Virus record (IMG/VR): IMGVR_UViG_3300021438_000029
Location: 1-40,396 of that record
Reading direction: 5' to 3' (one strand)
Length of the DNA stretch: 40,396 nt
Source of the DNA: a virus
Shown here piece after piece: positions 4,460 through 37,992 of the stretch; position 1 is the stretch's first letter; each line of letters begins with the position of its first letter. Made by a program: the position numbers and the translations under genes. Below the pieces are notes generated by a model. The model ran no database searches and was not told the origin of the DNA. It saw only the letters and a program-made list of their open reading frames with translations.

Positions 4460-5275
4460 ATGGCTGACAAGAATTCTACCCTTGTGACCCCGTTCGTGTT
4501 CCCCGGTGACGGGAAAGCGATCCGCTCACTGATCCTGCAAAATGGCGAGCCGGGATTTGTCGGAAAAGACGTTGCGGAGCGGCTGGGGTACGCCGACACC
4601 AGCGATGCTATCAAGCGCCATTGCAAGGGGTCGGTGATTCGCCTACCCCTTTTGACGGCCGGTGGACTGCAAGACGCCCGCATCCTGACCGAGCCAGATG
4701 TGCTGCGCTTGATCATGTCCAGCACCCTGCCTGCCGCGCAAGAGTTCGAGCGGTGGGTGTTCGAAGATGTGCTTCCGTCGATCCGTCGAACTGGCGGGTA
4801 CGCGATGCATGCGCAGAAAACCAACGGCGCTGAAGACATGGAGATCATGCGAGTGGTCGCCGATGCGCTGCGCCTTGAGGGGTCTGCGCGGCTGGACGTG
4901 ATTGGCCGCGCCATGGCGATTGTTGCCCCGCACCTGCTGCCGGCAATGCCCGTCTACGCCATCGATGCCCCGTCCGGCTCAACCGCTGGCAGCAGCGAGA
5001 CGACTGCATCCCTGACGACGCTGCTCAAGCGTCACGGCTACAAGGTCAGTGCGGCAGCGTGCAATGTTGCCCTGAAGGATCTCGGCATCATCGAGGCGAA
5101 GTCAAGGCCCAGCACCAAGGGTGTGTCGTACTTCTGGAGCCTTACGGAGGCCGGCCTGAAGTACGGCAAGAACGTGAGCAACCCAAAGAACCAGCGCGAG
5201 ACACAGCCGCATTGGTATGAGTCACGGTTTTCGGAACTGGCGCAACTGCTGCGCATCGAAGGAGCGCAGGCATGA
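4460..5275 (+). CDS. BRO-N family phage antirepressor
   Basis: A 271-residue regulator. Residues about 10-115 are a BRO-N domain: IRSLILQNGEPGFVGKDVAERLGY, split here as a long match, is followed by DAIKRHCKG, the acidic ILTEPDVLRLIMSS and FERWVFEDVLPSIRRTGGY. The C-terminal part (residues 175-271, SLTTLLKRHGYKVSAAACN then FWSLTEAGLKYG) resembles the winged-helix C-terminal domain of phage antirepressors. The family binds DNA or repressors and promotes lytic switching. GAGAAAGG precedes ATG 4460. The last codons overlap the next gene by ATGA. Confidence 0.85.
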   Translation: MADKNSTLVTPFVFPGDGKAIRSLILQNGEPGFVGKDVAERLGYADTSDAIKRHCKGSVIRLPLLTAGGLQDARILTEPDVLRLIMSSTLPAAQEFERWVFEDVLPSIRRTGGYAMHAQKTNGAEDMEIMRVVADALRLEGSARLDVIGRAMAIVAPHLLPAMPVYAIDAPSGSTAGSSETTASLTTLLKRHGYKVSAAACNVALKDLGIIEAKSRPSTKGVSYFWSLTEAGLKYGKNVSNPKNQRETQPHWYESRFSELAQLLRIEGAQA

Positions 5276-6279
5276 GCACCGAACAACTGCCCGACATCAA
5301 TAGCCCGTTCAACGCCTGCATGTACCGCGACGGCTGCCGAGCCGAGCACGCCCAGCGCGTCACGCTGCAGCACCATGCCGTCGATCAGGCGCAGCGCATC
5401 GCCGACCTGGAGGCCGAGCGCGACATGCTGAAGCGAATTGTCGGCGCGTACAGCCCGCAGAAAGAGCTTTTCGCGGCGCTGACGCAGGCGAAAGAGTCAG
5501 GGCGAAAGGCCAGGCAGGAGCGCGACGAGTTGGCGCGTGGGCATCGATCACAGCACGACGCCGACAGTACTGAACTGCGCCGCGTGTGCGCTGACCGGGA
5601 TGCAGCGCGGAAAGAGCGTGACGAGCTGCGCGCACAGATCAGCGCCTGCAAGCCCCACCTCCGCGAGCGACTGGACGGCATGCTCGAATCTCCGGCCAGC
5701 ATGCTGGCATTGCGGGAGGCGGAGGTGCTTGGACTGCTTGGGCGGCTGAGTGCTGCGCAGATACAGGTAGACGAGCTGCGCGCGAAACTGGCGGAGATCG
5801 AGGGGCAAGAGTGCTTGACGGTTGAGGCCGGGGAGTGGCGCACGATGAGCATCGACAAATCAATCGGCGAACTCATTGCGGCTGCCTCCGGAAGCGGCGA
5901 GGGCTTGGTTTCGGTCGAAAACGTGACGCTGGCTCAACTGCGGTTGCGCGACCTGATCGCCACAGTCATCGCCGATGCCCGGCGCGAGGGGGCGGAGCAG
6001 ATGCGCGCAGAGGCCGCCAAGATCGCCCGCGCGCTGCCGCTGTACTACGGCTCAGGCGACGATGGGGCCGATGAAAGCCTCGCGCAGGAAATCGAGGACC
6101 TGCCCCTGCCGACCGGCCCGCGCCAGGCGGTGCGGCTGACGGATGGGCAGATCACCGCCCTTGTGGACGGGTATGGGTGGACCGTCGCCGAGGCGCTCAT
6201 CGAAGACATACCGGAAATGGCTAGGGAAATCGAAACCGCCGTGCTCGCGGCGAACGGAATTGGGGGCGAGAATGACTGA
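5272..6279 (+). CDS. coiled-coil early protein, Ead/Ea22-like in layout
   Basis: A 335-residue protein. Residues about 1-30 contain a Cys-containing N-terminus (NACMYRDGCRAEHA). Residues about 38-170 are a long coiled coil rich in Glu, Arg and Ala. The rest is acidic with a final helical segment. Such modular coiled-coil proteins are common in early regions of lambdoid phages and have no settled function. It starts inside the BRO stop (ATGA at 5272-5275), so it is co-translated with the antirepressor. It overlaps the next gene by eight bases. Confidence 0.65.
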   Translation: MSTEQLPDINSPFNACMYRDGCRAEHAQRVTLQHHAVDQAQRIADLEAERDMLKRIVGAYSPQKELFAALTQAKESGRKARQERDELARGHRSQHDADSTELRRVCADRDAARKERDELRAQISACKPHLRERLDGMLESPASMLALREAEVLGLLGRLSAAQIQVDELRAKLAEIEGQECLTVEAGEWRTMSIDKSIGELIAAASGSGEGLVSVENVTLAQLRLRDLIATVIADARREGAEQMRAEAAKIARALPLYYGSGDDGADESLAQEIEDLPLPTGPRQAVRLTDGQITALVDGYGWTVAEALIEDIPEMAREIETAVLAANGIGGEND

Positions 6280-7130: not shown

Positions 7131-7397
7131 TCAGTTGCGCTTCAGTTCTTCGCAGTAATTGACCAGACTTCGCACCATTTTCAGCATAAGTTCGTGAATT
7201 TCTGCATGTTCGTGCAGCATGCTTGCCAGTTCTTCCGCTGCGTCGTCCAACAGAACAACGGTTGCGCCCGTCATGCGATGGTGAAGGGCATCGGTGGCAA
7301 ACGCCGCGCCAGATCGGCGCAGGTCTTCGGTTGCGAGCTTCGTCGTCTTCTCTGCGATCTCAAGCATGCGACGCGGGGTGATTGTTTTCATGATCAT
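7131..7397 (-). CDS. small helical hypothetical protein
   Basis: An 88-residue, largely alpha-helical protein (KTITPRRMLEIAEKTTKLA; then AAEELASMLHEHAEIHELM) without a recognised motif. Its start at 7397 overlaps the stop of the Rha gene (ATGA), so it is co-translated with it and is the last gene of the leftward late operon. An in-frame second ATG at 7391 is possible. It may be a partner of the Rha protein. Confidence 0.6.
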   Translation of the reverse strand: MIMKTITPRRMLEIAEKTTKLATEDLRRSGAAFATDALHHRMTGATVVLLDDAAEELASMLHEHAEIHELMLKMVRSLVNYCEELKRN

Positions 7398-7918
7398 CCC
7401 TTGATGGCAAACATGTCGGGCTGCTGCTCTTCAGCAATCAGCACAGCCTCAGGGCGCAGCACCTTCAGCGCCCGCTTGCGCTTGTTCATGTCGGCACTTC
7501 CGCCCTTGGCTGCGGCGTAGGTGGCGGAATCAAGCTGCTCCCATGCAACGATGCGCTCGTGCAGCGTCACGGGAACGGCTGGCACACGGTAGGATTGCGC
7601 GATCTCGGCAGCCATCTGGTTGAATGCCTTGATGTAGGTTCGCTTCCACGCCAGTGCGTCAGGACCAGTGAATCCCATTGCAAGCAGGCAGAACCCGTCT
7701 TTGCTGATGAGGTACTCGGGGCGCATCTCGCCTTTTGAGTCACGGTATTCAACCGGCGCAAAATTCCGCCCGTCGTCTTCGGTTAACAGCAGCGAACGAA
7801 TTGAGCGCAGAACGTCCTTGTGCTGCTTCTTGAACCGCTTCGCCACCTTGCGCGAGGTGGTCATTGGCTGGCCGTCGATCTCGGTCAGGTCGGCGAGGAT
7901 GTGGGTGATGCCTTGCAT
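7394..7918 (-). CDS. rha: Rha family phage regulatory protein
   Basis: A 174-residue protein with a full Rha domain at about residues 15-100. Key segments are TTSRKVAKRFKKQHKDVLRS, FAPVEYRDSKGEMRPEYLIS and KDGFCLLAMGFTGPDALAW, followed by the usual YIKAFN helix. In phage P22-type systems Rha interferes with growth in certain hosts; in general it is viewed as a DNA-binding regulator. The C-terminal 60 residues are helical and less conserved. AAAGGA lies six bases before ATG 7918. It sits downstream of the endolysin, an odd place for a regulator, and so would be made late. Confidence 0.85.
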   Translation of the reverse strand: MQGITHILADLTEIDGQPMTTSRKVAKRFKKQHKDVLRSIRSLLLTEDDGRNFAPVEYRDSKGEMRPEYLISKDGFCLLAMGFTGPDALAWKRTYIKAFNQMAAEIAQSYRVPAVPVTLHERIVAWEQLDSATYAAAKGGSADMNKRKRALKVLRPEAVLIAEEQQPDMFAIKG

Positions 7919-8008
7919 ACGTGTCCTTTGTCTATCTCGGGTGGAGCGCGCCGGCTGGTGAGACTTGCCAGCTTGTCCCCCGTCGGGTAGGCGCGCTGTA
8001 GCATTCTA

Positions 8009-8461
8009 TCAGCCGAGCATTGCAGCCTCGACCGCACGCCGGATGACAAGCCCGCGCAGCACACGGCCACCACCACGATTCCACCGCTTGATTTCCTGCT
8101 GAGCGCCGGGCCAGTCGCCCGCATTGACCCGCTTGCGAAGCGTGGACCCAGCCAAAGCCGCAATGCCAAGGTTGTATGCAAAATCCAGCAGCGCGGCGAT
8201 TTGGTCGAACGATTGTGCGCCGGGACACAGGCGCAACACGGCCGGCAGGTACTCGCGGCGCAGTTGCTCCACCGCCAGGGCGTAGGCGTGCTCACGGGTG
8301 ATTGGTGGGTCTGTCAGGCGGACCGGGCGGCCGTCGAGATATCGGGTGGACCCGAGGCCCACCGACGGAACGCCAGCGGGGCACAGGTACGGCCGCAGCC
8401 GCAGACCCTCGAATCTGACGATGACGGGCAGCGCGCGCTTGATCGGTGCCGGTGTTTGCAT
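8009..8461 (-). CDS. endolysin, GH24 lysozyme
   Basis: A 150-residue muramidase that cuts peptidoglycan during lysis. The catalytic glutamate is E18 in RFEGLRL, followed by YLCPAGVPSVGLGSTR. The spacing E18-x8-C27-x5-S33 matches the E-x8-D/C-x5-T pattern of phage lysozymes, with Cys in place of Asp and Ser in place of Thr. There is no signal sequence or SAR membrane segment at the N-terminus, so release should depend on a holin. GGAAG is placed before ATG 8461. The long structured-RNA region lies immediately upstream in the same transcript. Confidence 0.88.
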   Translation of the reverse strand: MQTPAPIKRALPVIVRFEGLRLRPYLCPAGVPSVGLGSTRYLDGRPVRLTDPPITREHAYALAVEQLRREYLPAVLRLCPGAQSFDQIAALLDFAYNLGIAALAGSTLRKRVNAGDWPGAQQEIKRWNRGGGRVLRGLVIRRAVEAAMLG

Positions 8462-8884
8462 GTTCAGCTTCCGTTAAGGTTGATTTCAAGGCGTACCACT
8501 CCTTACCCGTTGCTCCTGCCTGCCCCGTATTGCTGGGGTTCTGCAGGGCCTCGCCTTTATCAGGACACCTTGCCGGGGTCACCAGCTCTCGGAGGTCAGT
8601 CCGCCTGCCTTCGCCACTTGCGATTCGATCCGTGTTGTCTTGCTAGGCGGATCGGTCGTGCATCTTGGCGACAAGCCCTCAGAATTCGAGGGGGAGATCG
8701 GTAATCGCTTACCAGTCCTGTGTATACCTTCGCCTCTCGGCTACTTGGTGGTGCGGGTCACACCGGCATCCCGTAACGTGGGACTGACGGCCGGCTTCTA
8801 CCGGTCATCGAATCTCTGTCGTAGTGCATCAAACCCGGATGACTTCCCGTTTGTCTGTATGGCCGCTACTCGCCACAAACGGAA

Positions 8885-8992
8885 AAGCCCCTGACGGTTT
8901 CCGCTACATGGCCGGCAAGCTATGTGTAGGGATCGTCAGGGGCTTCCGGAGGGCGAGCCCTCTGCAACTGTTGTCTTGAGCTTGCCGGCCAT
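8885..8992 (-). other. perfect interleaved inverted repeats forming an H-type pseudoknot
   Basis: Arm A 8885-8896 (AAGCCCCTGACG on +) is the exact reverse complement of 8934-8945. Arm B 8908-8921 (ATGGCCGGCAAGCT) is the exact reverse complement of 8979-8992. The order A, B, A', B' means the 12-bp and 14-bp stems cross, with loops of 11, 12 and 33 bases, which is sterically possible. On the - strand the A stem ends in GGGGCTTTTCC, so alone it is terminator-like. Pairing of B with B' could switch or lock it. Confidence 0.75.
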
Positions 8993-9003
8993 CAGACGCT
9001 GAG

Positions 9004-9009
9004 AGTATA
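9004..9009 (-). promoter_or_regulatory. extended -10 promoter at the 5' end of the structured RNA
   Basis: The - strand reads TGG followed by TATACT (9009 to 9004), an extended -10 element. No good -35 is seen (CATCTC at the 17-base position). Transcription would begin near 8997, five bases before the B' arm of the pseudoknot. This fits an RNA made independently of the late transcript. Confidence 0.45.
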
Positions 9010-9014
9010 CCACA

Positions 9015-9479
9015 TCACCCGCCCTTGAGATGCACCCGCCCGCCGACGTACAGACCGAGCACGCCACAGACAACTTCCCCAAGCGCGCCAGTCAGCACGA
9101 TGTGAGCAGGCCAGATCGCCGACCCGACCAGTAGCAGGATCGAGGCCGACGCCAGCGCAGGGCGGATGGCCCCATTCCAGCCGTCAACCCAACCGATGCC
9201 AGATGGGCGCCCGATGGCCTCCATCGCATCCAGCATCATCCGGTCTGCAGCATCGCCCGCACTGGCCTCGCGCTGCGCCTCGATAAGCTTGACGCCGGCC
9301 GCCGCAGCATCCTGGACGGCCAGGCGTTGGCGCTCAGCACGCTCGCGCTCAAGGTCAGCCTGCAGCTTGATCATCTCGACCTCGGCCCGCCGGTCCTCGC
9401 GGGCCTTGAAGATACCTAGCAACTCGCCCAGCAGCCATCGCAGGCCGGCAGAACCAAGGAAGGAAATCAGGGCGGTCAT
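9015..9479 (-). CDS. three-TM holin-like membrane protein
   Basis: A 154-residue protein with a hydrophobic N-terminal helix (ALISFLGSAGLRWLLGELLG), a charged coiled coil at about residues 26-75 (EDRRAEVEMIKLQADLERER), and two C-terminal membrane segments after the motif WNGAIRPALA. This resembles the three-TM holin of gene-transfer agents and related prophage proteins. The role would be to permeabilise the inner membrane for the endolysin. Its start overlaps the previous stop (ATGA at 9476-9479). Confidence 0.55.
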   Translation of the reverse strand: MTALISFLGSAGLRWLLGELLGIFKAREDRRAEVEMIKLQADLERERAERQRLAVQDAAAAGVKLIEAQREASAGDAADRMMLDAMEAIGRPSGIGWVDGWNGAIRPALASASILLLVGSAIWPAHIVLTGALGEVVCGVLGLYVGGRVHLKGG

Positions 9480-36854: not shown

Positions 36855-37244
36855 TCAGCCGGGGCGCCACCTGTGCCCATGCGCTGACGCGCGAGTGCTG
36901 GCGATGCGGCGGCGGTTTGTGGCCGGGCAGAAAAAAGCCCACCGGTAGAACTCGGCGATAAGCGACACCTTGAAGTCGATCACCCGAGCCGTGTTGCGCA
37001 TGAATGAGACGATCAGGGCGGCCTGCTGTTCATTCAGGTCGGCGTACTCGACAGGCACGCCGCCGTGAGCCCCCATTCGGATTTGAAATCTGATTGGGCC
37101 AAACGACTCAAGCCGCGTCTGGTGGCGCCTCACAAGCTTGATGGTGCTGGCGCGCTGGTAGGCCATGCCTTGCGCGATCACCTCGGTAGAGGCCCGAAGC
37201 TCGCCATCAGGCGTAAGCCGCACAAGCGACGTTTGCTCAATCAT
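36855..37244 (-). CDS. Rha-like phage regulator
   Basis: A 129-residue protein. VIAQGMAYQRASTIKLVRRH, then IRFQIRMGAHGGVPVEYADL and AALIVSFMRNTARVIDFKVS with LIAEFYRW are recognisable as a Rha-type domain. After FYRW the reading frame turns into an Arg-rich stretch of poor character. A slippery T TTT TTC lies just there (36936-36930, third-base phase); a -1 shift would give a 159-residue form ending at 36766. It is the first gene after the late promoter region and before the terminase. Confidence 0.65.
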   Translation of the reverse strand: MIEQTSLVRLTPDGELRASTEVIAQGMAYQRASTIKLVRRHQTRLESFGPIRFQIRMGAHGGVPVEYADLNEQQAALIVSFMRNTARVIDFKVSLIAEFYRWAFFCPATNRRRIASTRASAHGHRWRPG

Positions 37245-37401: not shown

Positions 37402-37431
37402 ATCCTAACACACGCGTCAAGAGTGCCGCAA
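37402..37431 (-). promoter_or_regulatory. candidate late promoter (pR'-like)
   Basis: On the - strand TTGCGG (37431-37426) and TAGGAT (37407-37402) are spaced by 18 bases. The -35 lies within the last codons of the Q-like gene and a second TTGACG lies in the spacer. Position right behind Q and before a terminator matches pR' of lambda-type phages. The match to consensus is moderate. Confidence 0.45.
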
Positions 37432-37992
37432 GTGCTTGGAGATGCGACCAAGTGCAGATCCCGCGAACTCGTCACACATGGCCAGCATGTGGGCGCCCAG
37501 CTTGATCTCGTCGCCCTCGCCCCCGGACAGCGACGCCTTCCCGGACCCCTTGCAGTGCTTGCACACCCGCACCGCCGGGCCCTTCTCCGCGCTGTCCACC
37601 GTGCCCCGGCCGTCGCAGTGCTGGCACTGGGGCCACAGCCAGTGGCGGATCACGGCGCCGATCACGCGCGCCACCTGGGCGTCAGTGACCCCGAGCTTCA
37701 GGCGGGTCGCGCTGATTGACCCGTAGCGCATGAGCGCATCCTTCGCCGGCCCGAGCGTCTGCAGCCTCATCAGCAACAGCACCCGGTCAACGCCCTCGTT
37801 GGCGCCGTCGAGTTCTCGCGCTGAAACCGAGTCAGCCTCGGCGCGCAGCCGGGCCAGCAGCGTGCCAATCCCCAGCTTGTCGGATTGCCCCGCCCATCCT
37901 GCGGCGGTCAACACATCAGCCGGCCCTTGCGTGATGTCGCTCATCCCCAGACTGCTCGCCCGCGCCGCCAGTGCGTACCGTTCTTGGATCAT
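37417..37992 (-). CDS. Q: Q-type late antitermination protein
   Basis: A 191-residue protein. The DnaJ-like zinc module has C123/C126 (CQHCDGRGTV) and C144/C147 (CKHCKGSGKA). Before it comes LKLGVTDAQVARVIGAVIRH, a helix-turn-helix-like segment. This combination marks the Antiterm family of phage Q proteins. It lets RNA polymerase pass terminators in the late operon. GGAGG precedes ATG 37992. Its position at the end of the early arm and before the late genes agrees with this function. Confidence 0.8.
   Translation of the reverse strand: MIQERYALAARASSLGMSDITQGPADVLTAAGWAGQSDKLGIGTLLARLRAEADSVSARELDGANEGVDRVLLLMRLQTLGPAKDALMRYGSISATRLKLGVTDAQVARVIGAVIRHWLWPQCQHCDGRGTVDSAEKGPAVRVCKHCKGSGKASLSGGEGDEIKLGAHMLAMCDEFAGSALGRISKHLRHS

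Follow-up and report, generated by a model that had tools for sequence, protein, structure and literature searches.

A non-coding insertion ahead of a phage endolysin gene and a possible C4-like self-targeting RNA at its 5′ end

What occupies the 553 nt between a holin-like gene and the endolysin gene of this phage, and does the stretch act as an RNA? The window analyzed here is the entire virus record of 40,396 bases, whose terminase, portal, tail sheath, tape measure, and baseplate genes group it with temperate myophages such as Burkholderia phage Magia and Salmonella phage SEN34. Its late genes lie on the − strand; holin-like genes, the endolysin, and a Rha-type gene close the operon. From the 5′ to the 3′ side of the transcript, the locus is arranged as follows.

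9015–9479, − strand: gene upstream of the gap, related to phrog_6637 of unknown function (E 5e-8); its product is assigned as holin-like by position and small size
8462–9014, − strand: non-coding insertion, without coding potential and without a protein or RNA family
8009–8461, − strand: endolysin, the next gene downstream of the gap (phrog_7, E 2e-42)
7394–7918, − strand: Rha-type antirepressor/regulator gene, downstream of the endolysin (phrog_518, E 1e-36)

The gap between the holin-like and endolysin genes

The initial annotation had described 553 bases without a credible gene, and this is borne out. Between the end of the holin-like gene at 9015 and the endolysin start at 8461, the codon log-likelihood is negative in all six frames, whereas the known genes listed score +0.08 to +0.36. 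Neither Pfam nor PHROG gave a match for 8462–9014 with all six frames read through; a hidden or frameshifted gene is thus ruled out. No Rfam 15 family matches the region at gathering or permissive thresholds, and this includes the covariance models of GOLLD, ROOL, and HEARO, the large phage RNAs with which the stretch had been compared.

Among the closest endolysin relatives with an inspected upstream region, the endolysin directly follows the holin-like gene in L003–L007, and one further frame separates the two genes in L002 and L008. None of the nearest relatives examined has a long non-coding gap at this point, so the 553 nt are an insertion or moron in this phage; uncovered gaps of more than 200 nt upstream of the endolysin occur only in distant genome loci among 155 relatives. 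The nucleotide search that had been suggested as a route to homologues of the region yielded only noise from phages, plasmids, 401 genomes of one family, and 399 genomes of the order, and back-translated seeds used as queries found nothing.

Several side observations concern other parts of this phage and other loci. This 40-kb phage carries four antirepressor or Rha-type regulator genes (84–797, 4460–5275, 7394–7918, and 36855–37244), and the product of 37417–37992 is weakly similar to an antitermination protein Q-like family. In L031, palindromic repeats GGTGACAAA/TTTGTCACC at about 5450–5520, just behind the endolysin gene, resemble an operator array. Longer repeats with the ends GATTTCACGGAT...ATCCGTGAAATC, flanking about 80 nt, are present in two Azospirillum loci, L165 and L178, and probably represent a short interspersed repeat of Azospirillum.

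Folding across the gap and the interleaved repeats

The proposal of a large ornate RNA had relied on at least nine perfect stems, a GNRA hairpin, and a repeated motif. The count does not hold up, since perfect stems of at least 5 bp with loops of at most 12 nt number 5 against 4.3 ± 2.1 in shuffles. The hairpin GGTAA-GCGA-TTACC is indeed present at 8700–8713, but the stretch surrounding it folds no better than shuffles. The motif GGCGAAGG does occur twice on the − strand (8608–8615 and 8727–8734; CCTTCGCCACT/CCTTCGCCTCT on the + strand). Taken whole, the region folds only modestly better than shuffles (− strand, z −2.65; + strand, z −3.51). This is attributable to 8842–9001 alone, the only part that stands out in 120-nt windows (− strand, z about −4.3; + strand, z −4.3 to −4.7), relative to a background of 99 windows with mean z −0.45 and sd 1.16. 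The remaining 120-nt windows of the gap range from −1.94 to +1.35 (− strand), and the approximately 380 nt of 8462–8842 have a z near 0, folding like shuffles. Only the first 120 nt or so of the 553-nt gap, counted from its 5′ side, are strongly structured; what appeared to be a large structured RNA can thus be reduced to a 120-nt module. The features in and beside this module are the following.

9004–9012, − strand: extended −10 promoter-like site TGGTATACT, identified from sequence, with a predicted start near 9000–8997
8979–8992, − strand: 5′ arm of stem A (P1-like), ATGGCCGGCAAGCT, from an inverted-repeat search
8908–8921, − strand: 3′ arm of stem A, AGCTTGCCGGCCAT, whose core CATAGCTTGCCGGC is also found in the viral locus L207
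8949–8962, − strand: possible P2-like hairpin GAGGG-CUCG-CCCUC, which the computed fold does not favor
8934–8945, − strand: antisense stretch b, AAGCCCCTGACG, complementary to b′
8885–8896, − strand: target site b′, CGTCAGGGGCTT, with an SD-like AGGGG at 8892–8888 and TTCC behind it
8798–8878, − strand: weak candidate leader ORF of 26 codons with a TTG start, 9 nt behind AGGGG

The extended −10 reported for the 5′ end of the region is present at 9012–9004, and a promoter scan gave no −35/−10 pair there. It is followed by stem A, a perfect 14-bp stem (8992–8979/8921–8908), with which b and b′ are interleaved as a perfect inverted repeat of 12 bp, or 14 pairs when G–U is counted. These two long repeats are the significant part of the region, which the initial annotation had missed: the longest is reached in 0 of 400 shuffles, two repeats of at least 10 bp occur in 1 of 400, and the complementarity of b and b′ greatly exceeds chance (0 of 500 shuffles; duplex −26 kcal/mol). 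A second complementarity, GCUCGCC/GGCGAGU, is at chance level. Pairing of the AGGGG of b′ with the anti-SD sequence (−5.7 kcal/mol) is about equal to that of the Rha ribosome-binding site (−5.3 kcal/mol), and the 26-codon ORF behind it has no coding score.

Repeats of this kind may also act in cis. A transcription attenuator or terminator, in which the fold decides whether transcription ends or passes without any antisense action in trans, is an unlikely though serious alternative, and it would act on the late transcript or on a local transcript of about 118 nt. Segment 1 (8968–8956, GUUGCAGAGGGCU) would pair with b, as it does in an imperfect hairpin of the minimum-energy fold (−44.2), or b would pair with b′ (12 bp, then UUUU). 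The near-repetition of segment 1 in b′ (CAG(A)GGGCU), which makes the 1:2 and 2:3 hairpins mutually exclusive, speaks for such a switch, as do the TTCC after b′, through which four U close the stem, and a hairpin at b′ in the local fold of both this phage and L207. However, segments 1 and 2 both lie inside stem A, which is very stable, and a 2:3 pairing would thus form a pseudoknot; L207 also lacks an equivalent 1:2 hairpin. As an intrinsic terminator, the 12-bp stem has a loop of 37 nt and a U-run of only 4, and it is absent from the terminator scan; a search for a Rho-type C-rich stretch gave no clear C>G bubble (C/G at most 1.44).

A likely homologue in a P22-like phage

A pattern search of viral contigs with the 11-bp core of stem A returned three viral loci, two of them inside genes. 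The third, L207, belongs to a record with P22-like portal, head-closure, and DNA-ejection genes (a P22-like podovirus) and no match to the terminase of the present phage. Its element lies on the same strand as the late genes, at their end, and adjoins convergent early genes. A TAAACT −10 stands at the identical 14-nt distance from the stem, GGGCTTT (GGGCUUU) at the identical 20-nt offset from stem A, and GGCUCGC of the P2-like hairpin recurs within a 7-bp hairpin. Outside the selected stem, 16 of 2000 shuffles reach the similarity of the loop and 30 of 2000 that of the downstream 60 nt; all three segments together give a sum z of 3.1 (4 of 2000), and two chance hits treated alike as alignment controls gave z of 1 or less. 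On this comparison, L207 is likely, if not certain, to be a homologue of the element in an unrelated phage. The complementarities of L207 itself are weak (43 and 129 of 500 shuffles), and no Rha-type gene was found among the tested genes around it.

L207 is the sole relative retrieved: L205, L206, L209–L213, and most of the relaxed-pattern set were coding or chance matches, and L208, the single match of a terminator-stem pattern, is an ordinary long-loop terminator-like repeat. A stricter stem pattern had zero matches in the 399 genomes of the order, screening of 351 genomes, 38 virus records, and 93 loci with a covariance model built from this phage and L207 retrieved nothing, and L207 as a DNA query gave noise in phages and plasmids.

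The homologue helps to weigh the large-RNA proposal. Non-coding stretches do stand at comparable places in the two phages (553 nt here and about 400 nt in L207), as an ornate GOLLD/ROOL-like RNA of about 550 nt would lead one to expect. Against it, the 406-nt stretch of L207 folds at z +0.19, the downstream similarity between the phages is weak (11 of 300 shuffles reach its score), and the part of the gap outside the 120-nt module, with no excess structure and no Rfam match, is not clearly conserved in L207; we consider such an RNA very improbable. What survives of the initial claim is a non-coding, structured, promoter-led RNA at this place with a likely homologue at a comparable one, while the ornate form of about 500 nt does not.

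The opposite extreme, a non-functional intergenic insertion such as a degraded moron or gene remnant with chance repeats, would be compatible with a region that mostly lacks structure and conservation and with the absence of a long non-coding gap from the nearest relatives. Inverted repeats beyond chance, and a homologue at a comparable place of an unrelated phage, render it quite improbable. Somewhat less improbable, and with the attenuator one of the two main rivals to a C4-like reading, is a new class of small phage RNA with no relation to C4. Its hallmark would be the invariant GCCGGCAAGCU/CAUAGCUUGCCGGC stem, and it could be, for instance, an sRNA acting in trans or a protein-binding RNA made during late transcription. 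Both stem arms are identical in two unrelated phages whose remaining sequence has diverged, and no Rfam family covers them; yet the stem itself was what the pattern searched for, which makes its invariance a product of selection, only two members are known among the sequences searched, and the b:b′ complementarity is left unexplained. Another reading, which we regard as doubtful, holds that small promoter-led RNAs with interleaved stems form a new class and a mobile module at the late-operon end of unrelated tailed phages (myovirus-type and P22-like podovirus), where they would control lysis or antirepressor genes by pairing with their own transcript.

Comparison with C4, P4 CI, and large phage RNAs

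C4 of P1/P7 is described as being processed out of a larger transcript and pairing with ribosome-binding sites (PMC5320573), and the CI RNA of P4 as pairing with target sites in its own leader and thereby ending transcription (PMC4825925). By analogy with both, we tentatively propose that the element acts as a small regulatory RNA module directed at its own transcript. Transcription would start at the promoter at about 9009, and the first approximately 90 nt would form a stem-closed RNA bearing b, complementary to b′, which lies on that transcript 11 nt past the stem. Copies of this 5′ RNA, processed as C4 is by RNase P, might pair in trans with b′ on new transcripts, covering the SD-like AGGGG and thereby blocking translation of the short leader ORF. 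In the prophage state, lost translation, or early termination in the untranslated stretch of about 400 nt, would then let fewer late-operon transcripts continue into the endolysin and Rha-type antirepressor genes, giving the RNA a possible role in immunity or lysis timing.

Genuine C4 loci offer a yardstick for this proposal. The relaxed pattern retrieved three loci that Rfam calls C4 antisense RNA, adjoining isrK, which share the topology and the relation of loop to downstream SD and stand ahead of a Rha gene; the core GGCAAGCT that they have in common is no evidence, because it was the search pattern. Of 200 genomes sampled from a Burkholderiales family, 84 carry Rfam C4 RNAs, one genome having as many as 20 matches, and in many of twenty such loci (L304–L323) b pairs with an SD about 30 nt behind the RNA. 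The pairing of b with b′ in the present phage is a stronger form of this relation: 14 pairs at a site that holds AGGGG, although b is predicted in a hairpin arm rather than in a free loop, and the gene after the SD is a candidate ORF. The stem-closed RNA folds at z −6.0 in this phage and −6.6 in L207, compared with −5.4 for a genuine C4. P1 is present as stem A, P2 and P3 are possible in a fold 9 kcal/mol less stable than the minimum-energy fold, and a CUACA/UGUAG pairing of only 5 bp, below the threshold of the complementarity search, lies where a:a′ is expected.

Two side observations were made on C4-type loci. IsrK and C4 RNAs occur in tandem on three viral contigs (L242 7093–7281, L290 6677–6869, and L232 3589–3781), in L242 directly ahead of a Rha-type gene. 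In the present phage, the Rha leader between endolysin stop and Rha start (7919–8008, − strand) can be folded so that an 8-bp stem, AGCGCGCC/GGCGCGCT, encloses two hairpins. The outline recalls a small C4, but its energy is not unusual (z −1.1).

The element may resemble C4 in its logic without being a member of the family, a placement that we hold as tentatively as the proposal itself. It is not filed as a C4 because neither this phage nor the L207 record matches RF01695 (gathering cut-off 45 bits) even at E up to 10, because b is hidden in the best computed fold and the endolysin precedes the Rha gene, and because no Rha-type gene was found beside the L207 element, whose complementarities are individually weak. 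Whether a prophage remains silent depends on C4-type RNAs. Should this one operate within the late lysis region, antisense control of immunity would extend beyond antirepressor operons to a lysis gene, and C4-type RNAs would diverge beyond the reach of the Rfam model.

Among known systems, GOLLD, ROOL, and HEARO share with the region only a phage non-coding stretch of similar length, in contrast to its confined structure. With P4 CI RNA, the proposed RNA has in common an origin in an untranslated leader, complementarity to a site just downstream, and a long untranslated stretch behind it. Unlike P4, where seqA lies upstream and seqC downstream, the transcript strand here holds only one full match and none upstream, and a P4-type replication operon is absent downstream. 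Compared with C4 (RF01695 of P1/P7 and the isrK-C4-antirepressor loci), the element differs in the 16 unpaired nt after its outer stem, in an unfavored P2/P3, in a target site 11 rather than about 30 nt behind the stem, and in the endolysin standing between RNA and antirepressor. It shares with C4 the plan of a stem-closed RNA, about 90 nt long, that opens the very transcript it would target, as well as complementarity to an SD site farther along and a setting in temperate phages that carry Rha/Ant genes.
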